Under the pieces are notes generated by a model, which ran no database searches, had not been told where the DNA came from, and saw only the letters and a list, made by a program, of their open reading frames with translations. 34,828 nucleotides of DNA from a virus, in the IMG/VR virus record IMGVR_UViG_3300045777_000088, positions 1 to 34,828 of that record; one strand, 5' to 3'. Made by a program: the position numbers and the translations under genes. Below are positions 2,039 to 24,533 of this stretch, one piece after another. The number at the start of each line of letters is the position of its first letter. The first letter of the stretch is position 1.

Positions 2039-3588
2039 GCAATTCCCTCACCACCTCTGACATTCAGTTTTTGGGCAACGACCCGACGACGCAGAAGCTG
2101 CGCCGGCTCGTTCAGGATTTGGTCGCCGCCGAAAAAGCGATCAACACGCTCATCAATGAAGTCACGACGTTGCAAAGCGAGGCTGGCTCGACCGGGACTG
2201 AGGTGCTTGCCACCACCGAAGAGCTGGGGCCTAACTTCACCGTGTCCGGGTTGACGGAGGGGCAAGTTCTCAAAGCCTTGTCCGCAACCTCGGCCGCGTT
2301 TGCCAAGCTATCGTTGTCGGACCTGTCAAACGTGCTGATCGAAAACGGTCAGAACGGGCAAGTCCTCACCTTCATCAACAATCAGTGGGTCAATTCTAGT
2401 CCGGACGCGGGGCCATCGGCGCCGCAAGGTCAGAATCAGGGAACCGGTATCGACGTCTACGCGGGGTTATCGGGCGGCAATCTCGTTTTCAATTCAATTG
2501 CCGGCGACGGATCTTCCATCAGCGTCGACATTGTCGGAGAAACCATTGTGGTGTCGTTCATCGGAACGGCTGGCGGCAATGGTGTGGTGGGAGGACCTGG
2601 GCCGCCGGGATTTGATGAGGACCCTGAACCCGGCGAGCCCGGCCCGCCTGGGCAAATTGGGCCGCAGGGCATCCAAGGCGTTCCAGGAGCGACTGGCGGA
2701 ACGACGGTGTTTCAGTACCTGATGGTCGAGAGCCCCGATGCGGGCGAGCCTGGGGATTTTGGGCCGCCGGGGATTCAAGGCATCCAGGGCATTCAGGGGC
2801 CTTCCGGATCGGGCGGCTCGGGATCGACGTTCATTCTGATGGATGCCGACGCCGGCGCCGATGGCGATCCGGGGCCGCCTGGGTTTCAAGGGATCGCAGG
2901 GACAGGCGGTTCGACCGTTGGCGTGCCGGCGACCATCAATGACCTTGTGTGGTGGTGGCAGGGGGATATTGCGTTGGTATCCGCGGGAACCGGCTTGCAG
3001 CGCATGTTCGATTCCGGGCCGTGGACCGGGAATCACGCCAACACGTCGGCCCCAGGCGTGGTGCGGGACGCGACGCAGTTGAATGGCCGCAACGTGTTTA
3101 CGTGGCCCGCATCGACTGCCGGCCGTTGGACGCTGTCAACGGGTATCTCGCTGCCCTCAGCCACCGTGTTTGCAGTCATAAAGCCGAACTACAACGCAAC
3201 CTATACAGGGATCATGTTTTCCGGGGGCAGCGCGTCTTTGGAATACACCCAAGATCGAAGCAACGGCAAAATGGCGTTCGTCAAAAATTCGGCTTCGATT
3301 ATCGGAGAATCGACCACCGCATTGACCAATGGGACTTGGTATCAGGTCAACGCCACCTACAACGGGATCACCGGCAATTACGCTTTTCGCACCGCGCGCG
3401 CCGCCGATGGTTCGGGCACGAATTTGCAGGCCATCACGGCGCAGACAACGGCGTTTGGCTATAACCCACAATCAGGTTCTGAGGACATGCAAGGGGATCT
3501 TGCCGAGTTCATTGTCTACCAACGTGTTTTGAGCGGTGCGGAAATCAGCGCCGTCGAAGCCTACCTTCTCGCCAAATGGGGCGTGTAA
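2035..3588 (+). CDS. Collagen-like tail fibre with LamG-type tip
   Basis: The protein has 517 residues. The ATG at 2035 overlaps the upstream stop and is preferred over a longer frame starting at 1957, which lies inside the previous gene. The N-terminal ~60 residues include a short amphipathic helix suited to trimerisation. Collagen-like Gly-X-Y runs occupy about residues 189-222, 236-262 and 277-292 (GPPG, GEPGPPGQIGPQG, GIQGIQGIQG). Residues ~300-517 are beta-rich with WWWQGDIALV near the start and AEFIVYQRVLSGAEISAVE near the end, typical of LamG/concanavalin-A-like jelly-roll domains that bind carbohydrate. The inferred role is a trimeric host-recognition fibre at the virion tip. Collagen repeats are common length-variable linkers in phage fibres. 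Confidence 0.8.
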   Translation: MSNSLTTSDIQFLGNDPTTQKLRRLVQDLVAAEKAINTLINEVTTLQSEAGSTGTEVLATTEELGPNFTVSGLTEGQVLKALSATSAAFAKLSLSDLSNVLIENGQNGQVLTFINNQWVNSSPDAGPSAPQGQNQGTGIDVYAGLSGGNLVFNSIAGDGSSISVDIVGETIVVSFIGTAGGNGVVGGPGPPGFDEDPEPGEPGPPGQIGPQGIQGVPGATGGTTVFQYLMVESPDAGEPGDFGPPGIQGIQGIQGPSGSGGSGSTFILMDADAGADGDPGPPGFQGIAGTGGSTVGVPATINDLVWWWQGDIALVSAGTGLQRMFDSGPWTGNHANTSAPGVVRDATQLNGRNVFTWPASTAGRWTLSTGISLPSATVFAVIKPNYNATYTGIMFSGGSASLEYTQDRSNGKMAFVKNSASIIGESTTALTNGTWYQVNATYNGITGNYAFRTARAADGSGTNLQAITAQTTAFGYNPQSGSEDMQGDLAEFIVYQRVLSGAEISAVEAYLLAKWGV

Positions 3589-3982: not shown

Positions 3983-4500
3983 TGGCGCTGCGGTTCATGG
4001 TGCTAGGTGCGCCGCGGTCGGGAACCGCCTGGATGGCGAACTTCCTCTCGACCGATCGCTACCATTGCTACCACGATCCGCTGTTCGAGAGGCATTACGC
4101 CGACTTGGACAACTTGTACTTGCCCGGCAAGCACGTCGGCGTCGCCTGCACCGGCCTTGCGCTGTTTCACAAATGGGTGAACCAGCATCCATGCCCGAAG
4201 GTCATCCTGCACCGAACGCCGGACTTGGTGAATGCGAGCCTAAAAGCCATCGGCCTGCCGCCCGCGCCGCTGCGATTGTTCGAAGCGCTGTGGAAGATCA
4301 AAGGCAAGCACGTCGAGTGGACCGACCTGTTCGGGCATGAGATGGCGAACATCCACCTTCACCTGAAGTTGGGGCCGTTCGACTTGGAGCGATGGGAAAT
4401 GCTCAGGAACATGAAAATCACCGAGATTCACACTCGGCGCAGGCAAGATCCGCAGGTATTATCGCGTCTCATGAAAGATGCGTTTGAGCACGGCCTGTGA
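3982..4500 (+). CDS. Sulfotransferase-like P-loop protein
   Basis: The protein has 172 residues. Its N-terminus reads FMVLGAPRSGTAWM, which matches the 5'-phosphosulfate-binding loop of PAPS-dependent sulfotransferases (GAPRSGT at 9-15). Around residues 74-86, VILHRTPDLVNAS places an Arg (R78) and a Ser (S86) as in the 3'-phosphate-binding loop of that family. The C-terminal half has several His residues (HEMANIHLHLKL) and basic residues. It is shorter than cellular sulfotransferases (about 250-300 residues), so it may be a minimal or degenerate enzyme. It lies between fibre and ejection genes in the late operon, so the inferred target is a virion protein or host surface sugar. An unrelated P-loop role cannot be excluded. 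Confidence 0.6.
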   Translation: MALRFMVLGAPRSGTAWMANFLSTDRYHCYHDPLFERHYADLDNLYLPGKHVGVACTGLALFHKWVNQHPCPKVILHRTPDLVNASLKAIGLPPAPLRLFEALWKIKGKHVEWTDLFGHEMANIHLHLKLGPFDLERWEMLRNMKITEIHTRRRQDPQVLSRLMKDAFEHGL

Positions 4501-4546
4501 CCTTGATTTCTGGAACAATTCGTCATTTCGAGCAAGGAGAGTAGCC

Positions 4547-5590
4547 ATGCCGTGGGGAGCAGTTAAAAGTGGATTGGCAGTGGCCTCGGGCATCGCCGGG
4601 TTGTTCGATTCGAACAACCAAACCAAGGCGCAGCAGGCGGCGATCGCGCCTTTGCAGAACGCGCAATCGACCCTGTACTCGAAAGCCGAAGCCATCGCCA
4701 ACACCCCCTACACCCCCTATTCGGGGACGCAGGTCGCGCCCATCACCGGCAACCAGCAGCAGGCGTTGACGCAAGCGCAGACGGTCGCCAACAACGGCGA
4801 GGCTCAGACCGACGTCGGGAATGCCGAGAATCTCGCCGGCGGGGTTGCCAACAATGGGTGGAGTTCGGCCACTGCGGCCAAATACATGAACCCGTACACG
4901 CAAAACGTGACGGACATCGCGCAGCGGCAGTTGAACAAGCAGTACGCGAACACGATCAACGCGCAGAATTCGCAAGCCGCTTCGAGCGGCGCCTTTGGCG
5001 GGGACCGAGCGGCCCTGACCAACATGAACACCCAGGAAAACTACCTGCAGACCTCGGCCGACACCGCGGCCAAGGGACAGGCCGATGCCTACAATTCGGC
5101 CATTCAGACTTGGCAGGCCGACAATCAGCGGGCGCTAGGCGCGGCGCAGTCCTACCAGGCCTCCGGCAACGACATCACGCAGATGAACAGCCAGCAGATC
5201 AAGGACCTCTTGGCGACCGGAGGCGTCCAGCAGGCGACGCAGCAGATGGGGTTGAACGCCAATTACAACGACTACCTAGACCAGCGCAATTGGTCGACGC
5301 AAGAATTGCAGCCGCTGTTGCAGGCCGCGGGCGGCAAAGGCACGCCGGCGGGGGTGACGCCGACCAACACCGCCTCCGACATCTTGGGGATAGGCTCGGC
5401 GCTGGCGGGGTATTTCGGCAGCAATTCAACCACGCCAAGCACGGCTGTCACTTTCGATTCAAGCAATCCCAACGGCGCGGGCAACATTGCGGAAATCAAC
5501 CCGAACGCGGGACCTGCGGGTTTCAATACCGACAACATCGCGCCGGTCGGCACCGCCAGCCCGAACGGCACCACGTATTTCGGCCAGTAG
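4547..5590 (+). CDS. Putative internal virion / DNA-ejection protein
   Basis: The protein has 347 residues. The ATG at 4547 follows an AAGGAGAG site and is preferred over an upstream in-frame ATG at 4478 that overlaps the previous gene. The N-terminus is hydrophobic and Gly/Ala-rich (AVKSGLAVASGIAGLF). The body is rich in Gln, Asn and Ala with a long helical pattern (ALTQAQTVANNGEAQ, FGGDRAALTNMNTQ, QQATQQMGLNANYNDYL). A second Gly/Ala hydrophobic patch (ILGIGSALAGYFG) lies near residue 285. This composition and its place just before the giant ejection-type gene are typical of podoviral internal virion proteins that leave the capsid with the DNA. The assignment is by character and context. 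Confidence 0.55.
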   Translation: MPWGAVKSGLAVASGIAGLFDSNNQTKAQQAAIAPLQNAQSTLYSKAEAIANTPYTPYSGTQVAPITGNQQQALTQAQTVANNGEAQTDVGNAENLAGGVANNGWSSATAAKYMNPYTQNVTDIAQRQLNKQYANTINAQNSQAASSGAFGGDRAALTNMNTQENYLQTSADTAAKGQADAYNSAIQTWQADNQRALGAAQSYQASGNDITQMNSQQIKDLLATGGVQQATQQMGLNANYNDYLDQRNWSTQELQPLLQAAGGKGTPAGVTPTNTASDILGIGSALAGYFGSNSTTPSTAVTFDSSNPNGAGNIAEINPNAGPAGFNTDNIAPVGTASPNGTTYFGQ

Positions 5591-5599
5591 GAGATTGCC

Positions 5600-7198
5600 A
5601 TGGATGACCAGATAGCCCCGGTCGACGATGCCCCGGACGCTCCGGACGCCGCGCCCGAAAACAGCGACCTAATTGCGGACTACCGCCGGCACCTCTACGA
5701 AAACACCGGCGATCGCGTCGGCGCGCGCGCAGCGGCCCGCCCTGCCGCGCCAGCAGGCGGCGCTGGGCCGATGATTGCGCCCGGGCCCTCTGCGCAACCC
5801 CAGGGCGCAGGACCGGCCGTAGAGGCTCCCAGCGCCCCGGATGCGCCCATGATCGCCCCGGTCGGCCAAGCCCCGCAGGCCCCCAATGCGCCGCAAGCCG
5901 CTCAAGCGCCTCAAGCCCGGCAGGCCGCCATGGCGCGCGGCGCTCCGCAGGCGACGCAGGCCCCGACCATCGACGGCGCTCCGACCAACCCCGTACCGGC
6001 AGGGCTCCCGTTCGGGCCCGGCGCACCTCCCCTGTCGATGGGCGGCGCCACCTCCCCGAGTTCGGGGGCTCAGCCGGACCCGACCAATAAACCCGCGGCG
6101 GCGCACGTCATCAAGGGCAAGAAAACCGAGGACGGCAAGCCGCTGGTGAACATTCAGCCGCCGGATCACGACGCGGACACGGATTTCGACAAGAAAAAAC
6201 TCGCGGACGTGCACACGCCGGCGGATTTGGTCGACGCCCTGAAACCCGGCGCCCGGACCCGGTACATGGACTGGTGGGAACAGCAGCACGGCGACATCAA
6301 CGCCCGCTACGACCAGATGCGCGCGGAATTGGGCGCCCGGCCGGACCCGAACCGGGAACCGACCCGGCAGGAGAAATTTACCGAACTGATGAATTTCGGC
6401 CTCCAACTCATGCAAAACGCCCGGCGCGGCGCGGATCCGGTCGCGGCGGCCGGGCAGTCGGTGCAGCAGGCGTTCGGCGCGCAGAAAGCCAAGCAGCAGG
6501 CGCAGACGGAAGATTACGACACCAAGGTTGCCGGCATCGAAGGCCAGCGCCAAACTCAACTCAAAGATTTGGGCAATTACGGCCAGGCGGTGCGCGAGGA
6601 TTCGCTAATCAAGAATCAGGACGTGCAGACGGCCAACGCCTATGCGTCGATGCTCAAACCGCCCAAGACCGGCCAGCCGATCACGCGCGTCACGCCCGAT
6701 GGCACGCAGCTGCAATACAACCAGGATTCCGGGGCTTGGGACGTCTCCCTGACGAGCGACGGCAAGCCGGTGAAGCTCGACCCCAACACGGGGCCTCGAG
6801 GGGGGCAAAAGGGAGCGCCCGCTCGCATGCAGGAATTCAATCAGTTGATCAATGAGCAGCACATGGATCCGAACCGCGCGCTTGCAGCCGTGTACGGCAC
6901 CGGCGGGTACAAACCTGATGACCCGCAAAAAACCTACAACAGCATCTATTTGGCGGCAAAACGTCAATACGAGCCCGAAGAAGATGCGAAAGCGGAAGCT
7001 GAGCGCATGACCGCAGTGGTTCACGGCGACAATTGGCGCGGCAAAATGGCGAGCCGAAACGCACCGCCCATCAAGGGCAAGCCGCCCGCCCCGCCTTCGG
7101 TCGCCCCGCCGCCGAACAAGATCGGCGTTTTCAACGGCTGGAAGTGGCGCCGCGGCGCCGATGGCAAGCCCGAGGCGGTAGGCCCGGCCAATGGATGA
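5600..7198 (+). CDS. Pro/Ala-rich putative ejection protein
   Basis: The protein has 532 residues, with an ATG preceded by AGGAGA that overlaps the upstream TAG. Residues 1-165 are low-complexity Pro/Ala/Gln (repeated APQA, PQAPN, QAPQA), probably disordered. Residues ~175-370 are charged and helical (TPADLVDALKPGARTRYMDWWEQ, KFTELMNFGLQLMQNARRG) and followed by a Lys/Gln-rich coiled segment. Residues ~375-400 contain a small beta motif (ITRVTPDGTQLQYN). The C-terminus is Pro/Lys-rich. The stop overlaps the start of the giant gene by eight bases, so the two are probably co-translated. It most resembles internal virion proteins that accompany a giant ejected protein, but I know no named family. 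Confidence 0.55.
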   Translation: MDDQIAPVDDAPDAPDAAPENSDLIADYRRHLYENTGDRVGARAAARPAAPAGGAGPMIAPGPSAQPQGAGPAVEAPSAPDAPMIAPVGQAPQAPNAPQAAQAPQARQAAMARGAPQATQAPTIDGAPTNPVPAGLPFGPGAPPLSMGGATSPSSGAQPDPTNKPAAAHVIKGKKTEDGKPLVNIQPPDHDADTDFDKKKLADVHTPADLVDALKPGARTRYMDWWEQQHGDINARYDQMRAELGARPDPNREPTRQEKFTELMNFGLQLMQNARRGADPVAAAGQSVQQAFGAQKAKQQAQTEDYDTKVAGIEGQRQTQLKDLGNYGQAVREDSLIKNQDVQTANAYASMLKPPKTGQPITRVTPDGTQLQYNQDSGAWDVSLTSDGKPVKLDPNTGPRGGQKGAPARMQEFNQLINEQHMDPNRALAAVYGTGGYKPDDPQKTYNSIYLAAKRQYEPEEDAKAEAERMTAVVHGDNWRGKMASRNAPPIKGKPPAPPSVAPPPNKIGVFNGWKWRRGADGKPEAVGPANG

Positions 7199-10100
7199 CG
7201 CATCGCCCTACGAAAGCCTAGAGGATGACACCAGCGGCCCCTACGAGAGTCTCGAGGACGAAAACCCGCACGCCGCGCGCCTGACGCCGCCCGGGGACTT
7301 CCGGCAGGAAGGCGCCTACCAAGGCTGGCTTGAGATGCACGCCAAGCCGCAGCAGCCCGGCCGCGTCACGCGCGACTTGGAGTTCCCCGGCACCGGGTAC
7401 GAAAAAGGCACCGACGCCGACCACACCTTAAGTTTGGGCTCGGACTACAACGCCGTCACCCATGACCTTCGAGGCATGTGGAACAAGTACGCGACCCAAG
7501 ATCCGGTCTCCGGGCAGTTGGATTTGGAGCCCACCGCGGCGCAGATCGATGAATTCGCCCTCCCCGGCATGCGCGGGTTCACCGCGGACTCGAAGTTCGC
7601 CAAGGGCGTGCCGGCCGACCAGTTGGGTTCCTGGAACGACGATCACACCGAGTACCACCCGCCCGGCTGGCAACCGGAATCCGCCACCGCGCGCACGATG
7701 AAAGCCGCGTCCGAGGCGGCGGGACGCACCTACGATCAGGTGTCGGCCGGGTTGGCGCGCGGCAAACAGCGAAACCTCGCCACCGAATCGATGACCGACC
7801 AGGCGCTGGCCGATCAAACCTTGGCCGATCCGCTCAAGATCGGCGCGCAGAGCGCGCGCCAGAACTTGGCGGTCGTCGGCGGTCAAACCGGGATTTTGGA
7901 TCCGGACACCGTGGCCGACCAGATTGCGAGCGCGGAGAAGGCCAAACCGCCGTTGCCAGCGTTCCGGCGCGCCGCGGACGAGCAGCGCGAGAAGGCGGGG
8001 AGTTTCTTGGGCGTGCTCGATTCCTACGTCGAGAACCCTCGAGCAACTCTCGCCACGGTCATGCAGGGACTTTCAGAGGGTGGCGTGTCGCTGGGGCTCG
8101 CAACCGGCGGGGGCGCGGCGGCGGGCGCCGTGGGCGGCCCCGTGGGCGCGGCTTTGGGCACGGCGGCGGGCGCGGGCACAGGCGGGTACTTGGATGCCTA
8201 CGGCAGCACCATCCTGCAGACCATCAAGGCTTCCGGGGTGGACCTCGCGGACAAGGATGCGGTTTCCGCGGCGCTTAAAGACCCCGCTTTGATGGCAAAG
8301 GCGGCGGCGGCCGGAGAGAAAGCCGGCATCCCGGCGGCGATCATCAACGCCATCTCGTTTGGCGTCGCGGGCAAGCTCTACGAACCGGCCAAAACGCTGG
8401 CCGGCGGCGGCCGGCTGGGCACCGCGGCGGGTATTGGCGCCGAAACCGTAGGCCAAGCCGGCATCGGCGCTGGCGGCGAGGCGACGCGCGAGGCGGTTCA
8501 GGACGACAAGATGGACCCCGGCCGCATTGCCGAGGCGGGACTGTCCCAAGTCGCCCCCACCCTGGCGTTCACCGCCCTGCACGCGCGCGGCCGACCGGCC
8601 GAGTCTCAGGCCGAGACCCAAGCCGAGGCCGAGCAGCCGGCCGGCGGGTTCAACATCGATGACGTCAAGCCGCAAACTGGCGCCCCGGCCTTGGGCGGCT
8701 CCAAAGCGAGCGCCAGCGACACGTACTACCCCGGCTACCGTTGGGATCCTGATGCGCCGAATCCGCAGCCAGGGAATCCCGATCGCAAGGGCAAGTACGT
8801 CCCGACCGGCGAGCAGCCGAGCGCCCAAGAGCCCAAGCCTGCCCGCGCGGCGCCGAAAAAGGCTCAGGAAAACAATGCATTGGAAAGTCCGGCCGCGGAA
8901 GAACCGCCGCCGCGCGAGGAACGGCCGGGAGAGCCGCCGATCATCGATGCCGAGTTTCAGGACTTGCCACCCAAAGCCAAGGCTCTCACCCTTCAAGCGA
9001 CAAATCCGGACGCGGTGACGGTCGAACACACCGATTCGGGGTCGGTGGTGAAGGTCGACGATGTCCCCATTTCGACCCACGACACCCCGGAGGCGGCCGA
9101 ACAGGTGGCGCAGGGCGCCCGGGAAGCCATCGAAACCGAGGTCAGCAAGGCCGAACCCGCTGCGGAAACCCCGCTTGAGCGCACGCAGCCAATGCCGCCC
9201 GAGCGGCGCTCCAACACGGAACTGCGCCAGCGCGTCAACGACATGACCCCGGAGCAGCTGCGCGCCGCTTTGCTGCAGGACCATTTGACCCCGCTCCTGT
9301 CGAAACGCGGCTGGGACGAGCGAGACGCTCGCCCGACCATGATCCACATGGACCTGGACAGTTTGAAGGCGCTGAACGATCAGGCGTCCTACGACACCGG
9401 GGACCAGATCCTCAAAGCCGCCGGGCATGCGATCGCGGACGAGTTTGGGTCCGATCACGGCGCTCGAGTGGGCGGCGATGAGTTCAAGGCCGACCACGAC
9501 ACCCCGGAGGCCGCGCACGAAGCGATGAACCGGCTGAACCAGCGCCTAGCCGGGACCAAGATCGAAGTCACCTTGCCGGACGGCCGGAAGGTCAACATCA
9601 ACGGCATCGGCCTCTCGTATGGCGTAGGAGCATCGGACCATGAAGCAGAAACCAACCTCCACGCCCACAAAGCCAGTCGCGAGGCTGAAGGCACACGTTC
9701 CCCCCGCGGCCAACTCCCTGCGGGAACAACTATTACCGCTCCTGAAACAAGGGGGGAAAGTGACCAAAGTCACCCTGCCGCCGAAGAAGCCGGCCGGGAA
9801 GAAATAGCGCCGGAGAAACCCCCGGCGGTCGAAGGTCAGACCCACCTCGGCACGAACGCCGAAGGCGAGCACGTCTACGAGGACGAAAAAGGCGTCCGGA
9901 CGGCGATCAATCCCGAAACCGGGTCGGTGAACACCGAAAACGTCGGCTTGCGGCCGGTGCGCGGCCCAAACGGCACCATCAAATACGAGCATGTGCTCCA
10001 CAACCCGGAAGATCCGCGGTTTGAAGTGGAGAAGCCGGCTGATGTCGAAAAAGCAAAAAGAGCAGCCCGCGCGCCGAAGGTTTCGCGATATACGATCAAT

Positions 10101-13100
10101 GACCTGATAGACGGAGATGGCCCGGAAACTGTCATAGTTCGCCATTATCCAGACGGCAAGGTGACGGCTGCCATTGGCGAAGCCGCAGATGATCGTCATA
10201 TACAAGTAGACATCACGAAGATGATTGAGGCTGGCGCTACTCCCGAGCGAGCCATCGCGCAACATTTTGGGGAGGACACCAGCGGAAAGAACGTCGAACG
10301 TCAGCCAGAGACGCAACCCGCCCCGGATGAGGCGAAAGAGCCACCGGCTGTTGAAGGCGCCGCCGCCGAAGCGCAAACTGAAACCCATGGAAATGGAAAT
10401 CTACCGGCCGAGCGAGTACCCGAAACCGGTGCTCGAGCAGATGAAGGCAATGCCGCCGTTGGCGATCGAAATCGCGAACCGGTGGATGAGGGGATGGCCG
10501 AAAGCGGTGAAAGAGCACCTGAAAACGGGCCAGTACCTGAAATTCCTGAAAGCGCAGGAGGAACAGGAACGGAACGTGTTGAGCCAGCCGGGGAATCGGC
10601 ATCTGGCGAATCACGAGATAGCGGAACTGTACGGCCTGAGTCCGAAGCCGCCGATGCCGGAGACCACCGCCTAGACAACGAGGAATTGGGCAAAGGCAGC
10701 TTGCGCAGCAAGTACCGCGACAACGTCGCCGCCATCAAAATCCTCAAGGCCCTTGATACCGAAGGGCGCGTCGCCACCCCCGAAGAACGATCGGAGCTTG
10801 CGCGCTACGTCGGCTGGGGCGCAATGAAAGGCGTATTCGACCCCGCCAACAAGCAGTGGGCGAAACAGCACGAAGAACTGAAATCCCTTTTGACGCCCGC
10901 CGAATGGCGCGCCGCCCGCGCCTCGACGTTGAACGCTCATTACACCAGCAAGCCAGTCGTCAAAGGCATTTTTGATGCCATCCAACATTTGGGATTCGAT
11001 CGCGGCCGGGTGCTCGAGCCTTCTGTGGGTACGGGCAATTTCTTTGGACTCATGCCGCCCGACATGCGCGGCGGATCCGAACTGCACGGCGTTGAGCTCG
11101 ATCCGCTTACGGCCAAAATTGCCAAGGCTTTGTACCCTTCTGCGAACATCAAACAGATGGGATTTCAGGATTTCGACATTCCCGCGGAGTATTTCGATGC
11201 AGTCATTGGAAACCCACCCTTCGGCAATGAGCCCATCGTGGATAGCGCGCGCAGCCCCTATTCTGGCGCATCGATCCACAATTACTTTCTCTCCAAAGCC
11301 ATCGATAAGCTACGCCCGGGCGGCATCATGGCCGTGGTGGTCTCGCACAACTTCCTGGATGCACGCAACTCCAAAACGCGCGAATGGATCGCGCAACATG
11401 CGGACCTGATCGGCGCCGCGCGTCTCCCGCAAACCGCTTTCAAAGACACCGCCGGCACCGAGGTAGTGACCGACGTTGTTGTGTTACAAAAACGCGCTCC
11501 CAACACCAAAGGCAACGGCGATCAGTGGGTAGACACGGTCACTCAGAAGAACCGCGATCCAAAAACGGATTTGGAGCACGAGCACAGCGTCAATAAATGG
11601 ATGGCAAACCGTCCGGAAAACGTCTTGGGCGAACCCTCGGCCGCCGGAACCATGTACCGGCCTGGCGAATACACGGTCATGCCCACCGGGGATTTGGACA
11701 AACAAATCGACCAATGGGTGCAGCAGCTGCCGCAGGGCATTTACACAGGTGTCGAACGCGGCCCGCTGGAAGCCGATCAACCGGACGTCGCCATTCCGGA
11801 AGGCGTCAAGGTCGGTTCCTATTTCGTCGACTCGTCCGGCGCGGTGCGCACGCGGACCCCGGATGCGCTTGGACGGCAAACCTCAATTCCTTGGCAACAT
11901 CCAAACTTGAAAGCGCTCGATCGCGTCAAACGCATGATCGGACTGCGCGACCTGTTGCGCGAACAGATGCGGATGGAGCGCTCCGGAGAGGCAACGCCTA
12001 AAGACATCGAAAAAAACCGCAAGAAGCTCAACGCCGCCTACGATCAATTCCTGACCAAGTACGGGCTTTTGAACACACCCGTCAACCGTCGATTGTTTTT
12101 GGACGACACCGAGGCTCCGCTGGTATTGGCGCTTGAGTTCGATTACGACCGCGGTGTAGGCAACGCGACGGCGGAACGCGAAGGCATCGAGGCGCGACCA
12201 CCATCGGCCAGAAAAGCCGACATTTTCAAACAGCGGGTGCTGTTCCCGCCGGCCGACAACATCAAGGTCAGCAACGCCAAAGATGCGCTGTTGGCGAGCC
12301 TGAATTTCAAAGGCACCGTCGACCCGCAGTACATGAGCCAGGTGTACGACAAGTCCCCCGAAGCGATCGAACATGAGCTAGGCGATGTGGTGTTCCGCGA
12401 CCCGCAAAAAGGTCTGGTCACCGCGGATGAGTATTTGTCCGGCGACGTCAAAACGAAATTGGAAGAAGCCAAAGCTGCGGCGCTTGAAAAAAACGTCGCA
12501 GCGCTCGAAAAGGTCATCCCCCAGGACAAACTGCCATCGCAGATCCACGCGACGTTGGGTGCGGCATTCGTCCCGGAGGACGTGTACGGCGAGTTCTATC
12601 GACACATTACCGGCGCCCCGCATGAAGTTCGGTACGTCCCGGCTTTGGGCCAGTGGTTCACAAAAGAGAAAGGTCAGTTCGACAACGGTCGCAACGGCGA
12701 CCTGTTTGGCACCAAAGACATATCGGCTCAGGGAATCTTGGATAAGACGATGGCGGGCCAAGCGGTACTCATCACCCGCGTCATGCGCAATTCAGACGGC
12801 AGTACCAGCACGGTCGTCATGCAGAACGAGACTGAACTCGCCCGCGCAAAACAGGAGGCTATCAAAGACGAATGGAAGAAGTGGCTGTGGAGCGACGCCG
12901 AAAGGGCTGATCGGGTGGCGGGCATTTACAATGACAAATTGAATCGCATCGTCAATCGCAAATTCGACGGCCTGCACCTGACGTTTCCAGGCATGTCGCC
13001 GGCCATCAGCCTGTTGGATCATCAGAAAAATGCCGTGTGGCGCGGCCTTCAATCCCGCCAGATGCTTCTCGACCATGTCGTCGGCGCGGGCAAAACCTAC

Positions 13101-16100
13101 GCCATGGCAACCCTCGCCATGGAAATGCGCCGGCTGGGAATATCCAGAAAGCCCATGCTCGCGGTGCCGAATCACCTGACCGGGCAATGGCGATCGGAGT
13201 TTTCCAAACTTTACCCTTCGAGCTATATCCTGGTGGCGGAACCGGAGGATTTTCAGAAAGCCAATCGTCAAAAGTTCTTTTCCAAAATAGCGACCGGCGA
13301 TTGGGACGCGGTCATTGTCGGCCATTCATCGCTCAAGAAAATCGGCTTGCCGCCAGAAACTGAAAAGAAAATCATCACCGAACAGATGGACCGGCTTTCG
13401 GAAGCCATCGAGATGATGAAGCGCGAGCGCGGCGATCGAAACATCATCCGCGACATGGAGAACATCAAGGCGCGTCTTGAGGCAAAGTTCAAGACCAAGG
13501 TCAACAATCTTGGAGAACGCGATAAGGTGGTCAGTTTCGACGAACTGGGCTTGGATTCCCTGATGGTCGACGAACTGCACGAATTCAAAAACCTGTTTTA
13601 CACCTCGACCATGGCTCGAGCGGCCGGCATGGGCAACCCGACCGGATCCGACAAGGCGTTCGATTTGTTCGTCAAATCCCGCTGGCTCACAGATACGTTC
13701 GGAGACAAAGCGCCGATCATCGGAGCAACCGGAACGCCGGTCAGCAATTCGCTCGTCGAGATGTACAACATGCAGCGTTATCTGCAATACCCGACGTTGC
13801 AAAAGATGGGGCTGGATGTCTTTGATTCCTGGGCCAAGCAATTCGGCAACATGGAATCGGTTTACGAGGTCGCCCCATCCGGAACCGGCTGGCGCAATTC
13901 GACGCGGTTTCAAAAATTCGCGAACCTGCCGGCGCTGATGTCGCTTTACAAGACGTTCGCGGACACGGTCACTCTCGATAATTTGAAGGCTCAAGAAACC
14001 GCCCAAGGGCGCACATTCCCAGTGCCAAAGCTCGAAACGGGCGCACCGATCAACGTGGTGGCGCCGCGCTCCAAGCTGCAAGAAAATTTCATGGGCACCC
14101 CCAAAATGCAGATGGCGGCCGATGGCTTGCCGGATTTTGGTTTGTCCGTTCGGCCAGGGGATCCAAACCGCATCAAGAGTTTGCGATTCATCAAAGACGA
14201 CAAAACCGGCAAGTATGAAGCGCGCGGCATGCGCGACGACGACCGGGAATACTCGTTGGGTACGGGGTACGAAACCCAAGAAGATGCCGAGATGGCGATG
14301 GTGCAAAGAGCGCTGACGCCATCGCTTGCCGTTGATCCGGAATCCATCTTGGGGAAATTCGAGAACCTTCGCCGTTTGATGAAGGAAAGCAAAGGCAAGA
14401 TCAACGCCCTGTCGATTACCGGCGCCGCCAACAAAGCGGGATTGGATTATCGATTGATTGACCCGACTGCGCCGGATCATCCAGGTTCGAAGATCAATCG
14501 AGCGGTCGAAAACATCGTTGAGAACTACAAGCGTTGGGATAAAGACAAAGGAACGCAGTTGGTGTTTTGCGATTTGTCCGTGCCGCTGTCGGCCCGCGCT
14601 TCATCCGCGTCCGCGCCCCGGCTGGTGTACGTGCGCGACCCCTCGACGCAATTGCTGACGCACAAGCGCGGCACCATGCACACCGTTGTTGGGCATGAGC
14701 AAATTCCCTATTTCGCGGTCGAGCGCGGCACCAAAGACGAAAAGCGCATCGATGTTTACGACGCCGCATCTGGCCGGCTCGTAAATCAGAACCTCAAAAC
14801 CAAGGCCGAAGCGCATCAGTGGGCAAAAACCACTTTGGATGACGAAAACGCCAGGACCCGCTGGCATCTTGCTCGCAACGAGGTCGGAGAAATCGATCAA
14901 GATTCGATCGACGACTACAACAACACGCAGGAGATTGACCCCGAGGAAACTCCAATATTTGGACGAGACGACATAGCGGGTGCTTCCGGGCCGGCAAAAT
15001 TCAGCGTGTACGACGACATCAAAGCGAAACTGATCAAGGCGGGCATTCCAGCGCGTGAGGTCGCTTTTATTCACGACTACAACTCGCCAACCGCCAAGCA
15101 AAAGCTGTTCGACCAAGTCAATGCCGGAGACATCCGGGTGCTTTTGGGATCCACGGCCAAAATGGGCGCGGGCACCAACGTCCAAAAACGCGCCGTGGGT
15201 TTGCACCACATCGACGCGCCGTGGCGTCCGTCCGATCTTGAGCAGCGGGATGGCCGCGTAATCCGTCGCGGCAACATGCTGTACGACCGCGATCCAGACG
15301 GGTTTCGGATGCGGATATACCGCTACGCCACTGCGCAAACCTATGATACCCGCCGCTGGCAGGTGCTTGAACACAAGGCACGCGGCATCGAACAACTGCG
15401 CAACTACGATTCCTCTATCGAAGAAATAGACGACATCGAAGGTCAAGCGGCCGACGCTGCCGACATGAAAGCCGCCGCATCCGGGGATCCTCTTATCTTG
15501 GAGGAAACCAAGCTGCGCAACGAGGTCCAAGCGCTCGAGCGGCTCTCGGCTGCGACCGCCGACCAGCAAGCCGCCATGCGCCAAAAAGCGCGGCAAGCGC
15601 GGCAGTACGCCAATGTAACGCTGCCGGATCAAATCGCCAGGCTGAAAGCCGAAGGCAAAATCGCGACCGCCAACCCGCCAAGCAAAGAGGGCTGGGCACC
15701 ACTTGAGGTGGCCGGCAAAGAGTTTCATGCCATAGACAAGTTCGAGCCGTATTTGGCCGACATCGTTGCCTCGATGCGGAACAAAGAACTGACCGTTCCG
15801 GTGCGCATCGAGTACCGAGGGCTGGCGTTCCAAATTGAAGCCCGCGCATCTTACGATGGCAGTGTTGCCATCAAGCTCAAAGCGCCGAGCGGCGAGGAAA
15901 TGAGCTATTACACTGCCAAGGATACGGTTTCTCCATCCGGATTCCTGACTCGACTCGCCAATTACGTCGCCAACATTCCCGATCGCATTGAGTTCAACAA
16001 GCGCCAAATCGAAAGCAGCCTAAAAACCGCCGAAGATTCCGAAGAAGCGTCCAAACGCGGTTTCGATAAACAGAAAGAATTGGACGATGCCCGCGCCCGA

Positions 16101-19100
16101 TTCAAAAAGGTTCGCAATGCCCTGTTGGCAAAAGGGCCGCCGGTTTCCGACGAGGAACGGCCCATGTTTGAAAGCGGCACGATCGCGCAGCGGGAAGGCT
16201 TGGAAGATTTGGGGCTCGGTGAGCGCTTGCACGAATTTGAGCGCGGCCAGAAACGCGACATGCTGGCCCGCGGCGACGGCGCCGGCGGCATGCCGAAGGC
16301 CGAGGTGGAGCGCCAAGCGCAGGCAATCATCGACGGTTTCACGATCAAGCCCAAAGGGCTGGTGGTGGTGCAGTCAGCCCGCGAGCTCGCCCGCACCGAC
16401 TTGGGTCCCAACATGCGCGCCGCGGCGGCGGCCGGCGCCAACCCCATCGCCAGCTATTTCCCTGGTACGGGAAAAATCTACATCGTCGCGGACGCCATCA
16501 AGAGCCCTGAACACCTTGCCGGCATTGTGGCGCATGAAATGGTGGTGCATTTCGGCCTGCGGTCCATGCTGGGTTCCCCGTACAGCGCCGAGTACCGCCA
16601 GCTGCTACGAAACATCGCTCAAGCGCTGCCGGCCGCCACGGACTTCCACGGCCGGCGCGAGATTTCAAACTACGACCCGACCCGCAAAAGCCACAAGCAG
16701 ATCGGCGCCGAGGAAGCGCTGGCCTACTACGAACAGGCTCAGGCGCAGGGCGGCAAGATCCCGCCCGCTTGGAAGCAGTGGATCGACAAGGTGCATCAGA
16801 TCGTGCGCGACTGGCTGCGCAAGATTGCGGGCCTACCGGAGAAATTCGACGACCTGTACGTGCGCAATGTCTTGAATGCGCTGCGTCAACACCTTCGAAG
16901 CGGCCGAGACCGATCGACCGGCGAGGGCGATGCCAGCAACGCAATGCCCAAAGACACGTTCTATTCCAGCGTCGAGCGCGTACTGGCCGAGGACGGAGAA
17001 GGTGAAGGCGGCAGTAATTCCCTGCCCGCTCACATCGTCAAAATCACCCCCGAGATGCGCAACTCCGTGCTGGAAGGCATGCCGCTGTTCGCGCGCCCGA
17101 TGTTTGCTCGAGACGGCGATCCGGCGCCGCCTTACGAGGAACCGCTGAAAGAGCGCACGCCGAGCAAGGTCTACATGGCGGCCCGGCGCGCGGCGACTTC
17201 GCTGGTCGACAACCGCCTCGTCATGGACATTCGCAAGATCCTGAACCCCAAGGACGTGAGCGCGGTATCCAAGGAAGTGGCGGCCCGAACGATTCCGTAC
17301 TTGGGCGAACTGGCGCACATGAAAGCGCAAGCACAGGAGCGCCTTGAGGAATTCGCCCGCGTGATCGGCAAACTGTCCCCGCAGGATCAGTTGGACATGA
17401 TCCATGCCATCGAGACCGGCCAACGTCAGCCCATCGCGGCTTTGCAGCCGGCGGCCGATGCCATGCGGCAGATGCTCGACTTCTGGCGCGACCAGGTGCG
17501 GGCGCTGGGCGACGGGTATCTGGAAAACTACCTCGAAAACTACTTCCCGCATTTCTGGCAGGACAAAGCATCGGACGTCGAGAAGCTCTTTGCCAGCATC
17601 CAGGGCCGCAGGACCATGCGCGGGCCGGCGACGTTCCTGAAACAGCGTGTCGTGCCGACCATCCGCGACGGCATCGAGTGGGGATTGACCCCGGCGACCA
17701 TCAACCCCTTGGTCATGACCTTGCTCAAGGTCCATGAAATGCAGCGGTTCATTTCGGGCGTCAGCATGATGCGCTCGTACAAGGAGCACGGCCTTGCGGT
17801 GTTTCAGCGGGCCGGCAAACCCACCCCGGCGGGCTGGGTGAAGATCGACGATCCGATTGCCCGCGTGTCGCAGTGGTCGGAGGAAGAACAGGGGTTCATT
17901 GAGCGCGGCCACTACATCATGCCGGAGGACGGCGGGCGGATCATCAACAACCACCTGTCTGCTTCAAGGCTTCGAAACTTCGCGCCGGCCCAAGCATTCC
18001 GGTTCGCGACGAACCTTCTGAACTCCATGCAGTTGGGCCTGTCGGCCTTCCATTTGGGATTCACGACCCTGGATGCCATGGTCTCGAAGAACGCGCTGGC
18101 GATCGAGCACATGATGCACTTTGAGCCGATCCGCGCGGCCGGGGCGTTCCTCGAGGCCGCCACCCCTGCCGGCGCAATCATGAACATCCGCCGCGGCTAC
18201 CAGCTGATGCAGGCGTACCTGAACCCTTCCGGTGCGACCCCGGAATTGAAAGCGCTGGTCGCGGCGCTGGCGGCCGGCGGCGGTCGGGTAAAAATGGACA
18301 CCTACTTCATGCCGACCCACGGGCAATCCCCGTTCCGCGGGTACGGCTTGGGCGCGATCCGCGGCGACATCCGCGCCGCCTTGGCGCAACCGCACGACAA
18401 GGTCAGCGCTTTGACCAAGGCGATCGGCAACATTCCGGTCGAGTACGCGCAGAAGTTCTGGAACGAACTGCGGGTGTTGGCACGGATCAATCCCGCGTTC
18501 GTGGTGCCGTTTGAAGTTTTAGGCCGCATCACGCGCGCCACCACGTCGCCAATCATGGAGTACATCGTCCCTTGGCAGAAATTGGGCGTGTTCTCGGATT
18601 TGGCGTCGAACTGGATCCGGCGCAATCCCGGCGCCGATGCGGAGGATGTGGCGAAGGCCATGCAATCCATCTGGCGCTCGGTCGACAACCGCTTAGGCGA
18701 AATGGTTTACGACGACAAATTTTGGGACCGCACGTTTAAAGACACGTTGCACCTTACCATTCGCGCGGTCGGCTGGAACTTTGGCACCATCGAGGAAATC
18801 GGCGGGGCGCCGCATGACGTGTTGAAGGCGGTCGACAAAGGCTTACGGACTGGCAAGATCAACGCGGACGATTTTGGTCACAAGGCTACCTACGTGATGG
18901 GCCTCATGTTCACCACGGCGGTCATTGGCGCGATCACGCAGTACCTGATGACTGGGAAGGGCCCGGACGAACTCAAGGACTACATCTTCCCGAAAACCGG
19001 CCGCTTGCTGCCGGACGGGGCCGCAGAGCGCATTGCGCTGCCTTCCTACGCCAAGGACATTTGGGAGTACGCGCACCACCCGGGCACGACCATAATCCAC

Positions 19101-19766
19101 AAAGCCAACCCCATTTTCGGGGAGATTGCGGACCAGTGGAACGGCACCGACTATTTCGGCCACCCCATCTACAACCCGTCCGACAAGAGCACGGTGTTCG
19201 ACTGGCATAGCGAGGACCGCGCCAAGCATTTCTTCGGGGAAGCGCTGCCCTTCTCGGTGCAGGGGCAGAAACAGTTGCAGGGCGCCAAGGAGCCGGGGTT
19301 CACCGGCGAAGCGTTCAGCGCCATGCCGTTCGTCGGGTTGGCGCCGGCCCCGGGCGTGGTGACCAACCCGGAGAAGATCGAATCGTTCCAGCACTACAAG
19401 GAACTGCAGGCGTGGAAGGACAAGCTGCAATTCGATTTGAAGCAGGCGCGCAAGGCCGGCGACAAGACGAAGATTCAGGACATTCAGCGGCAGTTGCAGG
19501 ACAGCCGGCGCGAGAACGCGCAGGAGCACTCCGAGTACATGCGCCGCAAGATGGAAGCGCAGAAGCGCATCCAGGATCAGAAGCGCGGCGGCAACACGTC
19601 GGAGCTCATGCGGACGATCGGGCCGCTCATCGACGGAAGTTCGTCCAGGGCCGAGATGCAGCAACGCATTGAAAAGGCGGGCTATCCGGCGCTGGCTGGG
19701 CTTTTGGGAAATTTACCCGACGAAATTAGGCCACAAGTCAAAGCCAAGCTTGCGGAGTACGCATGA
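7191..19766 (+). CDS. Giant DarB-like virion protein: GGDEF, N6-adenine MTase, SF2 helicase, metallopeptidase-like, ejection region
   Basis: This is a 4191-residue polyvalent protein. Order of parts: unknown N-terminus (1-290); Gly/Ala hydrophobic segments (~299-337, ~372-440) suited to membrane insertion; GGDEF domain (~674-834, motif 761-765); acidic linkers; N6-adenine methyltransferase (~1168-1440, motif I LEPSVGTGNF 1275-1284, NPPF 1341-1344); SF2 helicase (GAGKT 1965-1969, DELH 2127-2130, GATGTP 2178-2183, QRDGRVIRRG 2685-2694) with an extra ~130-residue insert after LVFCD (2457-2461); HExxxH segment (HEMVVH 3115-3120); helical virion region (~3300-4191) with a membrane-like stretch near 3900 and a terminal coiled coil. 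Methylase plus helicase is the architecture of P1 DarB, an anti-restriction protein injected with DNA. The protein is inferred to be packaged and ejected to protect and process incoming DNA. Confidence 0.85.
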   Translation: MDDASPYESLEDDTSGPYESLEDENPHAARLTPPGDFRQEGAYQGWLEMHAKPQQPGRVTRDLEFPGTGYEKGTDADHTLSLGSDYNAVTHDLRGMWNKYATQDPVSGQLDLEPTAAQIDEFALPGMRGFTADSKFAKGVPADQLGSWNDDHTEYHPPGWQPESATARTMKAASEAAGRTYDQVSAGLARGKQRNLATESMTDQALADQTLADPLKIGAQSARQNLAVVGGQTGILDPDTVADQIASAEKAKPPLPAFRRAADEQREKAGSFLGVLDSYVENPRATLATVMQGLSEGGVSLGLATGGGAAAGAVGGPVGAALGTAAGAGTGGYLDAYGSTILQTIKASGVDLADKDAVSAALKDPALMAKAAAAGEKAGIPAAIINAISFGVAGKLYEPAKTLAGGGRLGTAAGIGAETVGQAGIGAGGEATREAVQDDKMDPGRIAEAGLSQVAPTLAFTALHARGRPAESQAETQAEAEQPAGGFNIDDVKPQTGAPALGGSKASASDTYYPGYRWDPDAPNPQPGNPDRKGKYVPTGEQPSAQEPKPARAAPKKAQENNALESPAAEEPPPREERPGEPPIIDAEFQDLPPKAKALTLQATNPDAVTVEHTDSGSVVKVDDVPISTHDTPEAAEQVAQGAREAIETEVSKAEPAAETPLERTQPMPPERRSNTELRQRVNDMTPEQLRAALLQDHLTPLLSKRGWDERDARPTMIHMDLDSLKALNDQASYDTGDQILKAAGHAIADEFGSDHGARVGGDEFKADHDTPEAAHEAMNRLNQRLAGTKIEVTLPDGRKVNINGIGLSYGVGASDHEAETNLHAHKASREAEGTRSPRGQLPAGTTITAPETRGESDQSHPAAEEAGREEIAPEKPPAVEGQTHLGTNAEGEHVYEDEKGVRTAINPETGSVNTENVGLRPVRGPNGTIKYEHVLHNPEDPRFEVEKPADVEKAKRAARAPKVSRYTINDLIDGDGPETVIVRHYPDGKVTAAIGEAADDRHIQVDITKMIEAGATPERAIAQHFGEDTSGKNVERQPETQPAPDEAKEPPAVEGAAAEAQTETHGNGNLPAERVPETGARADEGNAAVGDRNREPVDEGMAESGERAPENGPVPEIPESAGGTGTERVEPAGESASGESRDSGTVRPESEAADAGDHRLDNEELGKGSLRSKYRDNVAAIKILKALDTEGRVATPEERSELARYVGWGAMKGVFDPANKQWAKQHEELKSLLTPAEWRAARASTLNAHYTSKPVVKGIFDAIQHLGFDRGRVLEPSVGTGNFFGLMPPDMRGGSELHGVELDPLTAKIAKALYPSANIKQMGFQDFDIPAEYFDAVIGNPPFGNEPIVDSARSPYSGASIHNYFLSKAIDKLRPGGIMAVVVSHNFLDARNSKTREWIAQHADLIGAARLPQTAFKDTAGTEVVTDVVVLQKRAPNTKGNGDQWVDTVTQKNRDPKTDLEHEHSVNKWMANRPENVLGEPSAAGTMYRPGEYTVMPTGDLDKQIDQWVQQLPQGIYTGVERGPLEADQPDVAIPEGVKVGSYFVDSSGAVRTRTPDALGRQTSIPWQHPNLKALDRVKRMIGLRDLLREQMRMERSGEATPKDIEKNRKKLNAAYDQFLTKYGLLNTPVNRRLFLDDTEAPLVLALEFDYDRGVGNATAEREGIEARPPSARKADIFKQRVLFPPADNIKVSNAKDALLASLNFKGTVDPQYMSQVYDKSPEAIEHELGDVVFRDPQKGLVTADEYLSGDVKTKLEEAKAAALEKNVAALEKVIPQDKLPSQIHATLGAAFVPEDVYGEFYRHITGAPHEVRYVPALGQWFTKEKGQFDNGRNGDLFGTKDISAQGILDKTMAGQAVLITRVMRNSDGSTSTVVMQNETELARAKQEAIKDEWKKWLWSDAERADRVAGIYNDKLNRIVNRKFDGLHLTFPGMSPAISLLDHQKNAVWRGLQSRQMLLDHVVGAGKTYAMATLAMEMRRLGISRKPMLAVPNHLTGQWRSEFSKLYPSSYILVAEPEDFQKANRQKFFSKIATGDWDAVIVGHSSLKKIGLPPETEKKIITEQMDRLSEAIEMMKRERGDRNIIRDMENIKARLEAKFKTKVNNLGERDKVVSFDELGLDSLMVDELHEFKNLFYTSTMARAAGMGNPTGSDKAFDLFVKSRWLTDTFGDKAPIIGATGTPVSNSLVEMYNMQRYLQYPTLQKMGLDVFDSWAKQFGNMESVYEVAPSGTGWRNSTRFQKFANLPALMSLYKTFADTVTLDNLKAQETAQGRTFPVPKLETGAPINVVAPRSKLQENFMGTPKMQMAADGLPDFGLSVRPGDPNRIKSLRFIKDDKTGKYEARGMRDDDREYSLGTGYETQEDAEMAMVQRALTPSLAVDPESILGKFENLRRLMKESKGKINALSITGAANKAGLDYRLIDPTAPDHPGSKINRAVENIVENYKRWDKDKGTQLVFCDLSVPLSARASSASAPRLVYVRDPSTQLLTHKRGTMHTVVGHEQIPYFAVERGTKDEKRIDVYDAASGRLVNQNLKTKAEAHQWAKTTLDDENARTRWHLARNEVGEIDQDSIDDYNNTQEIDPEETPIFGRDDIAGASGPAKFSVYDDIKAKLIKAGIPAREVAFIHDYNSPTAKQKLFDQVNAGDIRVLLGSTAKMGAGTNVQKRAVGLHHIDAPWRPSDLEQRDGRVIRRGNMLYDRDPDGFRMRIYRYATAQTYDTRRWQVLEHKARGIEQLRNYDSSIEEIDDIEGQAADAADMKAAASGDPLILEETKLRNEVQALERLSAATADQQAAMRQKARQARQYANVTLPDQIARLKAEGKIATANPPSKEGWAPLEVAGKEFHAIDKFEPYLADIVASMRNKELTVPVRIEYRGLAFQIEARASYDGSVAIKLKAPSGEEMSYYTAKDTVSPSGFLTRLANYVANIPDRIEFNKRQIESSLKTAEDSEEASKRGFDKQKELDDARARFKKVRNALLAKGPPVSDEERPMFESGTIAQREGLEDLGLGERLHEFERGQKRDMLARGDGAGGMPKAEVERQAQAIIDGFTIKPKGLVVVQSARELARTDLGPNMRAAAAAGANPIASYFPGTGKIYIVADAIKSPEHLAGIVAHEMVVHFGLRSMLGSPYSAEYRQLLRNIAQALPAATDFHGRREISNYDPTRKSHKQIGAEEALAYYEQAQAQGGKIPPAWKQWIDKVHQIVRDWLRKIAGLPEKFDDLYVRNVLNALRQHLRSGRDRSTGEGDASNAMPKDTFYSSVERVLAEDGEGEGGSNSLPAHIVKITPEMRNSVLEGMPLFARPMFARDGDPAPPYEEPLKERTPSKVYMAARRAATSLVDNRLVMDIRKILNPKDVSAVSKEVAARTIPYLGELAHMKAQAQERLEEFARVIGKLSPQDQLDMIHAIETGQRQPIAALQPAADAMRQMLDFWRDQVRALGDGYLENYLENYFPHFWQDKASDVEKLFASIQGRRTMRGPATFLKQRVVPTIRDGIEWGLTPATINPLVMTLLKVHEMQRFISGVSMMRSYKEHGLAVFQRAGKPTPAGWVKIDDPIARVSQWSEEEQGFIERGHYIMPEDGGRIINNHLSASRLRNFAPAQAFRFATNLLNSMQLGLSAFHLGFTTLDAMVSKNALAIEHMMHFEPIRAAGAFLEAATPAGAIMNIRRGYQLMQAYLNPSGATPELKALVAALAAGGGRVKMDTYFMPTHGQSPFRGYGLGAIRGDIRAALAQPHDKVSALTKAIGNIPVEYAQKFWNELRVLARINPAFVVPFEVLGRITRATTSPIMEYIVPWQKLGVFSDLASNWIRRNPGADAEDVAKAMQSIWRSVDNRLGEMVYDDKFWDRTFKDTLHLTIRAVGWNFGTIEEIGGAPHDVLKAVDKGLRTGKINADDFGHKATYVMGLMFTTAVIGAITQYLMTGKGPDELKDYIFPKTGRLLPDGAAERIALPSYAKDIWEYAHHPGTTIIHKANPIFGEIADQWNGTDYFGHPIYNPSDKSTVFDWHSEDRAKHFFGEALPFSVQGQKQLQGAKEPGFTGEAFSAMPFVGLAPAPGVVTNPEKIESFQHYKELQAWKDKLQFDLKQARKAGDKTKIQDIQRQLQDSRRENAQEHSEYMRRKMEAQKRIQDQKRGGNTSELMRTIGPLIDGSSSRAEMQQRIEKAGYPALAGLLGNLPDEIRPQVKAKLAEYA
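9640..9807 (+). CDS. Candidate nested small gene inside giant gene, +1 frame
   Basis: This ORF encodes 55 residues and is read one base ahead of the giant gene. It has its own ATG with TAGGAG nine bases upstream. The product is Lys/Pro-rich with a Leu helix (ANSLREQLLPLLKQGGK) and a basic tail ending KKPAGKK. In its second half, codons mostly end in G or C, whereas giant-frame codons there often end in A or T and give an acidic low-complexity peptide. In its first part the giant frame still looks like the natural end of the GGDEF domain, so true dual coding or a chance ORF are both possible. No function can be assigned. Confidence 0.4.
   Translation: MKQKPTSTPTKPVARLKAHVPPAANSLREQLLPLLKQGGKVTKVTLPPKKPAGKK
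10387..10674 (+). CDS. Nested gene inside giant gene, +1 frame, unknown function
   Basis: This ORF encodes 95 residues, again one base ahead of the giant gene; the frame extends further up with possible starts at 10309 and 10225. The product looks like a real globular protein: MEMEIYRPSEYPKPVLEQM, then RWMRGWPKAVKEHLKTGQY, and NHEIAELYGL. By hand count about 76 of 95 codons end in G or C in this frame, against about 36 of 95 in the giant's frame, where the peptide is a Glu/Pro/Gly/Ala linker. The ribosome site is weak. The TAG at 10672-10674 sits about 20 bases before the methyltransferase part begins. I infer an older small gene now overprinted by the giant frame. Its function is unknown and its expression unproven. 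Confidence 0.55.
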   Translation: MEMEIYRPSEYPKPVLEQMKAMPPLAIEIANRWMRGWPKAVKEHLKTGQYLKFLKAQEEQERNVLSQPGNRHLANHEIAELYGLSPKPPMPETTA

Positions 19767-20245
19767 CCCAGAATCCGAACTTGGTGGCATTCTTGGCGAC
19801 GATCCGGCACAGCGAAGGCACGGACCAATACCCAAACCCTTGGTCCGTGTGCTTTGAGGGGAAATTCACCATCACCGATTTCTCCGAACACCCCGCAGTG
19901 CTCGGCACCTGGCACGGCGAGCCGCTCGATTTCTTGGGTCCCAAGTACGTCGGCATGGTCTCGACCGCCGCCGGGGCCTACCAGCTGATCCGCCCAACGT
20001 GGGAAGCCTGCAAGAAAGCAATGCACCTCCCGGATTTCAGCCCGAGTTCCCAGGATGCCGCGGCGACCTACCTGATCAACAGCAAAAAAGCGCTCAATCT
20101 GGTGACTTCCGGCCAGATTGCGGCGGCTATCACCCTTTGCAGTGGGTTATGGGCCTCCCTTCCAGGTTCGTCGTCTGGTCAGCCGCAAGCAAAAATGGCA
20201 TCCTTGATCCAAGCCTACACAACGGCTGGCGGGGGATTCGCGTGA
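19763..20245 (+). CDS. Endolysin, lambda R-like lytic transglycosylase (GH104)
   Basis: The protein has 160 residues and starts at an ATG that overlaps the stop of the giant gene (ATGA). The N-terminus FLATIRHSEGTD carries the likely catalytic Glu (E18) in the position seen in lambda R. The following FTITDFSEHP, STAAGAYQLIRPTWE, DFSPSSQDAAATYLI and ALCSGLWASLPGSS-type segments match the lambda lysozyme/GH104 fold. The family cleaves the MurNAc-GlcNAc bond of peptidoglycan and forms 1,6-anhydro ends. It has no signal peptide or membrane anchor, so release to the periplasm should need a holin. It heads the lysis cassette with the spanins just downstream. Confidence 0.92.
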   Translation: MTQNPNLVAFLATIRHSEGTDQYPNPWSVCFEGKFTITDFSEHPAVLGTWHGEPLDFLGPKYVGMVSTAAGAYQLIRPTWEACKKAMHLPDFSPSSQDAAATYLINSKKALNLVTSGQIAAAITLCSGLWASLPGSSSGQPQAKMASLIQAYTTAGGGFA

Positions 20246-23549: not shown

Positions 23550-23552
23550 GAA

Positions 23553-24467: not shown

Positions 24468-24504
24468 CGCTATTACCTTTAGGGTTGACGAATGGTGACA
24501 AAGG

Positions 24505-24533
24505 ATATTACCCTTCGCTCGCACGCTTGGCAA
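24505..24533 (-). promoter_or_regulatory. Sigma70-like promoter of the recombination operon
   Basis: Read on the minus strand, TTGCCA (24533-24528) is followed after 17 bases by TAATAT (24510-24505), about 38 bases before the exonuclease start. This matches a sigma70 promoter well and accounts for the leftward exonuclease-Bet operon. A 10-base direct repeat, TGACAAAGGA, occurs at 24496-24505, touching the -10 box, and at 24538-24547, just upstream of the -35 box. The repeat pair may be an operator, although the second copy also serves as the ribosome site of the rightward gene at 24553. Confidence 0.55.

Follow-up and report, generated by a model that had tools for sequence, protein, structure and literature searches.

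A putative diguanylate cyclase domain carried by a giant DarB-like polyvalent phage protein

A single open reading frame of a viral record encodes a giant DarB-like protein with a complete GGDEF domain, and at least 50 non-redundant giant phage proteins carry the same domain with its catalytic residues almost unchanged. The stretch of DNA analysed here, referred to as the window, is the IMG/VR viral record IMGVR_UViG_3300045777_000088 (34,828 bases), and the giant frame spans positions 7191..19766 (4,191 aa; plus strand, as are the features within it and the two genes named below as its neighbours), with an assignment to PHROG 10089, 'DarB-like antirestriction' (1739 bits). By Pfam, unrelated enzymatic domains, namely a GGDEF domain, an N6-methylase and an SF2 helicase, are joined in this one frame, and its product is a polyvalent protein as the term is defined (a giant phage or plasmid protein in which unrelated enzymatic domains are joined). 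The reading we prefer, with somewhat more than even confidence, is that of a competent diguanylate cyclase carried as exchangeable cargo by a DarB-like protein, which would be packaged, ejected and make c-di-GMP early in infection. Both the presence of GGDEF domains in giant phage proteins and the idea of synthesis at entry were already published in 2017; new here are the scale of the survey and the retained active site.

The GGDEF domain and its active site

The domain occupies residues 671-865 of the giant protein (9201..9785; extent taken from pairwise alignments of the family) and matches Pfam PF00990 over residues 695-818 (35.1 bits, E 1.5e-8, curated cut-off 23.8). The isolated domain scores 39.5 bits (E 6e-10) and the GGDEF letters are therefore not a chance five-letter match, an explanation that the score above the cut-off and the AF2 fold together rule out. 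The AF2 model of residues 660-851, computed from an input alignment of 45 rows (the window and relative loci), has a mean pLDDT of 93.7, a pTM of 0.85 and a complete strand-helix order, and its fold core (residues 686-836, nt 9246-9698) lies close to the span of 9210-9690 given in a preliminary description of this DNA. The best PDB match is 3ign (Z 16.9, 1.8 A over 136 residues, VIA-align), and PleD in complex with GTP-alpha-S (2v0n) is matched with a Z of 15.1; the 50 PDB matches listed (Foldseek, VIA-align) are all GGDEF-domain proteins, nearly all of them diguanylate cyclases, and include cyclases bound to GTP and to c-di-GMP. In a viral structure library, A0A516M277_1, part of a large viral protein, ranks first (39% identity, E 1.4e-20), ahead of a protein of Bordetella phage CN1, and the family profile matches PleD with an E value of 8e-41. 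It is nearly certain that the domain is present and complete in the giant frame. The preliminary description had claimed an intact GGDEF domain inside a phage virion protein: Pfam, AF2 and PDB comparisons bear out the first part, and the word 'virion' derives from a homologue, JC1 gp69, discussed below.

The same description had pointed to RVGGDEF, with GGDEF at residues 761-765, and to HMDLDSLKALND (about residues 719-730), which holds the metal-binding Asp721 and the pair N729-D730, and both features are as it stated. The metal-binding residues kept in the window are Asp721 (9351..9353) and Asp763/Glu764, the latter two within the GGDEF motif (9471..9485), whose hairpin also contains G761, G762 and F765. 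The guanine contacts are Asn729 (9375..9377) and Asp738 (9402..9404), and the phosphate contacts would be Lys827 and, with less certainty, Arg830 (9669..9680). We take D721, L725, K726, N729 and D738 to be the equivalents of D327, F331, K332, N335 and D344 in PleD, and D763 and K827 those of E370 and K442. The phosphate contacts of PleD itself are K442 and R446; the arginine that follows Lys827 sits at K+3 in the window sub-family and at K+4 in PleD. A model check of the nucleotide pocket, suggested at the outset, came out in favour of one, with the full GGDEF fold and the pocket residues in place.

Compared with the bacterial diguanylate cyclases PleD, DgcB and DosC, the window domain has the same fold and catalytic residues and differs, besides the K+3 arginine, in two respects: the RxxD I-site for product inhibition is absent from the window, where the equivalent stretch reads FGSD, and no sensory or Rec domain was recognised together with the GGDEF domain. 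Two further family stretches are altered, GHxxGD to SYDTGD and LTGxxNRR to LTPLLSKR. These changes, the K+3 arginine and the missing I-site count against the preferred reading. In hybrid (Hypr, cGAMP-making) GGDEF enzymes, a Ser replaces the second guanine-contacting Asp; this change is not found in the window, and the presence of Asp738 argues for GTP over a hybrid-type specificity. The possibility that the window holds a degenerate pseudo-enzyme was rejected by column comparison, by which no metal or guanine contact is lost. We consider it probable that the domain is catalytically competent.

Relatives of the domain in giant phage proteins

Viral contigs searched with the window domain alone gave only one weak locus, and a search with an alignment of the window and one relative, L033, returned only the contig of L033 itself, the back-translated patterns being too specific in both cases. 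A profile survey that used the GGDEF motif as a pattern was set aside for judging motif retention, and the counts below come from a second search restricted to the N-terminal half of the domain, with the patterns D[SG]LK[WA][VLI]ND and [LV]T[GP][LV][LP][NS][RK]R[AGE][FW] and the motif excluded. Of the 73 loci retrieved, 60 lie in frames longer than 900 aa; removal of duplicates left 51 giant-borne rows, one of which reaches its contig end before the motif (n = 50 there). In columns outside the search patterns, D721 is found in 51/51 rows, G762, D763, E764 and K827 in 50/50 and R830 in 45/50, and the position of Asp738 holds Asp in 44/51 and Asn in 6/51. Asn729 is kept in all 51 rows, an invariance that, as for D723, K726 and D730, is partly by construction because these positions lie in a search pattern. 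A separate 50-row alignment has the same invariant positions, all 50 rows match the Pfam GGDEF family (E 0.01 or better), and, when 15 whole giants are aligned, nearly every invariant column falls within the GGDEF domain. The dN/dS ratios point to purifying selection on the domain (0.07-0.26 in the seven relative pairs with unsaturated dS; two further pairs are saturated).

The hairpin itself is more variable. The first G of the motif is Ser in 39 of the 50 rows, Gly in four, Lys in four, Gln in two and His in one, and the Arg at position -2 is replaced by His in 45, so that the majority form is H-x-S-G-D-E-F; besides the window, the canonical R-x-G-G-D-E-F occurs in four rows (L152, L182, L188 and L190). 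The survey of relatives that had been proposed as a check thus found the catalytic residues retained, with the perfect signature of the window confined to a minority. A variant first G is no proof of a dead enzyme, because enzymes with SGDEF or AGDEF can be active: VCA0965 (AGDEF) makes c-di-GMP, with activity abolished when Ser is introduced, ECA3270 (SGDEF) is active (PMC3974145), and MbaA (SGDEF) acts as a cyclase in vivo (PMC8079147). In the literature examined, we found neither a survey of active-site retention nor the His-x-Ser majority, and both are added here.

In a tree with many weak inner branches and some long rows, the window groups with phage-borne GGDEF domains and the cellular domains included fall apart from them (SH-aLRT 92). 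This group includes the stand-alone proteins of Yuavirus and Vojvodinavirus (YuA gp44, MP1412 and Bordetella phage FP1), which are 36-41% identical to the window domain and share with it a C-terminal K-A-x-R-E...G-x-R...R-G signature; unlike the window domain, they are unfused (about 156 aa), have SGDEF or AGDEF and a shorter loop after the motif. The YuA protein is mentioned in the review literature. Outside the sub-family of the window in this tree, giant frames with a canonical GGDEF were seen in L042, L045, L088, L071 and L077, some of which carry ART-PolyVal or ddrB-ParB domains. Single viral contigs can also hold several GGDEF frames (three in L053 and two in L062).

A probably mosaic giant with a DarB-like core

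The central part of the giant protein (residues 1065-3025; 10383..16265) matches Pfam Eco57I, N6_Mtase, ResIII and Helicase_C, with the methylase motif NPPF at residue 1341 and the SF2 helicase motif GAGKT at residue 1965, and is a methylase-helicase core of the DarB family. DarB of phage P1 travels in the virion and shields DNA in cis. It is 57.6% identical to the 'structural protein' of Pseudomonas phage 8P, and across the closest giants (8P and L027-L032) core identity to the window is 45-59% over about 1,900 residues (55% over 715 residues for the fragment L031). None of these closest giants has a GGDEF domain; a transglycosylase lies near the N-terminus in 4/6 of L027-L032 and in several cultured phages. 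Lessievirus and its relatives (JC1 gp69, Bcep22 gp75) share with 8P and the window the methylase-helicase core and a similar gene order, with the difference that JC1 has an N-terminal transglycosylase in place of the GGDEF domain and that the 8P protein has neither SLT nor GGDEF.

Other parts of the protein have other relatives. The window GGDEF domain is closest to domains of other giants (48% identical to that of L134), and the C-terminal region (residues 3020-4191; 16248..19763) is common to several GGDEF-bearing giants, with 45-50% identity to L134, L156, L158, L164 and L130 over about residues 3255-4191; these five show no DarB core in the sequence covered. The GC content of third codon positions is 0.68 in the core, compared with 0.80-0.82 in the N-terminal part, GGDEF domain and C-terminal region. 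These separate sets of relatives and the GC shift fit a mosaic gene. Because the nearest core relatives are without it, the GGDEF domain appears to be swappable cargo, dispensable to the DarB-core lineage, and because a DarB core is present in only 6/60 GGDEF giant frames (two of them near-identical), its occurrence does not depend on DarB. Its partners in the 15 giants scanned include InPase (7), RadC (5), ResIII (5), ART-PolyVal, LPD38, Eco57I and others. InPase (PF18823) occurs in 14/50 GGDEF contigs, always in the same frame as GGDEF, and within about 55 aa of it, in either order, in L134, L130, L132, L135, L141, L164 and L176, a closeness whose test assumes uniform placement along the frame. 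Enrichment is not significant (14/50 versus 3/16 giants without GGDEF, P 0.53) and the window has no InPase; a pairing in which the pyrophosphatase removes the PPi by-product of the cyclase is possible.

As for the word 'virion', CsCl-purified particles of JC1 yielded 51 unique peptides of gp69, the homologue of the core (PMC9144972), and this proven presence makes the term a well-grounded prediction for the window giant. For P1 DarB, each virion holds about 40 copies, and the first 30 residues of the protein are enough for targeting (PMC9024508). In the window, the giant gene is preceded by a gene resembling a DNA ejection protein (4478..5590; PHROG 4287, E 3e-13) and followed by an endolysin-like gene (19763..20245; PHROG 90, E 8e-32), an order similar to that of JC1, where the homologue lies behind virion-associated genes and ahead of lysis genes. 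By analogy with these phages, we think it likely, with greater confidence than for catalytic competence, that the window giant is delivered with the DNA. The protein also contains HEMVVH (residues 3115-3120; 16533..16550), a zincin-like metallopeptidase motif of the HEXXXH form without a Pfam match, which is possibly a self-processing peptidase motif. Iyer et al. 2017 (PMC5512222) describe the HEXXXH form for the metallopeptidase of polyvalent proteins, in which a zincin-like domain is common, not obligatory. Elsewhere in the window, the frame at 1957-3588 has a Laminin_G_3 domain next to a weakly collagen-like stretch that scores under the Pfam cut-off and probably encodes a tail fibre or an appendage protein, and genes for a RecT-like annealing protein and a RecE-like exonuclease adjoin each other at 22533-24533 on the minus strand.

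Proposed action at DNA entry and alternative readings

In the mechanism that we propose, a DarB-like polyvalent protein carries the diguanylate cyclase module in its N-terminal part as exchangeable cargo. Judging from the JC1 and P1 homologues, this protein would most likely be loaded into the head and leave it together with the DNA. Once inside the new host, the GGDEF domain would bring copies of the protein, or of a proteolytic fragment of it, together in pairs, and the paired domains would bind two substrate molecules, GTP as suggested by Asn729 and Asp738, together with metal ions. The c-di-GMP so made early in infection may alter the physiology of the host or overwhelm a nucleotide-sensing defence. 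The preliminary description had likewise suggested that the phage, if the domain is active and injected, would make cyclic di-GMP or a related dinucleotide at entry, and that this could affect motility, biofilm state or cyclic-nucleotide defence.

A domain that binds GTP or c-di-GMP without synthesis, and acts as a sensor or regulator of the adjoining methylase-helicase in the manner of degenerate bacterial GGDEF domains, is an unlikely alternative to which two observations lend some weight, namely that many bacterial GGDEF domains are regulators and that most relatives deviate at the first G and the -2 Arg. A pure binder would not need the metal-binding acids and the phosphate-contacting Lys, yet these are invariant; the I-site through which c-di-GMP would be bound is missing in the window, and the many different partners of the domain are unsuited to a dedicated regulator of one neighbour. 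Less likely still is an active cyclase that makes a product other than c-di-GMP, or is tuned by the H-x-S-G-D-E-F hairpin, and confuses or blocks nucleotide-based defences. The substitutions in most relatives (Ser in 39/50 and Lys, Gln or His in 7/50 at the first G, His in 45/50 at -2) would suit such an enzyme, and phage counter-defences against cyclic nucleotides are documented, but the residues for GTP specificity, Asn729 and Asp738, are kept, the Hypr Asp-to-Ser change is absent and the window itself carries the canonical motif.

The timing of action is a separate matter. The closest annotated relatives are unfused GGDEF genes that lie among non-structural genes. One such gene is carried by Bordetella phage LK3, whose lysogens form excess biofilm, although the cause was not shown in the source study. 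The enzyme could accordingly act later, after being made from the phage genome in the course of infection or lysogeny (the presumed situation in Yuavirus and Vojvodinavirus), with its presence in the particle incidental or absent; we regard this as improbable for the window, where the domain is part of a DarB-like protein with virion-packaged homologues. The preferred reading of a cyclase delivered with the DNA can be extended, tentatively and with well under even confidence, to the family as a whole: a widespread phage nucleotidyl cyclase family, with its own H-x-S-G-D-E-F hairpin in most members and sometimes an adjoining pyrophosphatase domain, would be a swappable module of probably injected giants that raises a cyclic dinucleotide at DNA entry and so reprograms the cell or saturates nucleotide-sensing defences.

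In the open literature, we found no virion-borne diguanylate cyclase of phage origin that had been tested. The accessible text of Iyer et al. 2017 (PMC5512222) reports GGDEF domains in polyvalent proteins and proposes cyclic-nucleotide synthesis on entry, directed against the host or rivals; one of its examples, the Acetonema longum prophage protein WP_004096050.1, resembles the window giant in joining GGDEF, an adenine methylase and a SWI2/SNF2 helicase. That text calls the domain 'not very widespread' and contains no active-site survey, in contrast to the giants counted here, most of which have the H-x-S-G-D-E-F form. With many members whose catalytic residues are intact, the survey makes the proposal directly testable, and the canonical GGDEF and the H-x-SGDEF forms offer a natural contrast. 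If active and delivered, the domain would give the phage a second-messenger enzyme inside the cell ahead of any expression of its own genes. Since cyclic nucleotides control many of the choices that bacteria make and also drive several defences against phages, a cyclase that arrives ready-made would be a route to host takeover or counter-defence.
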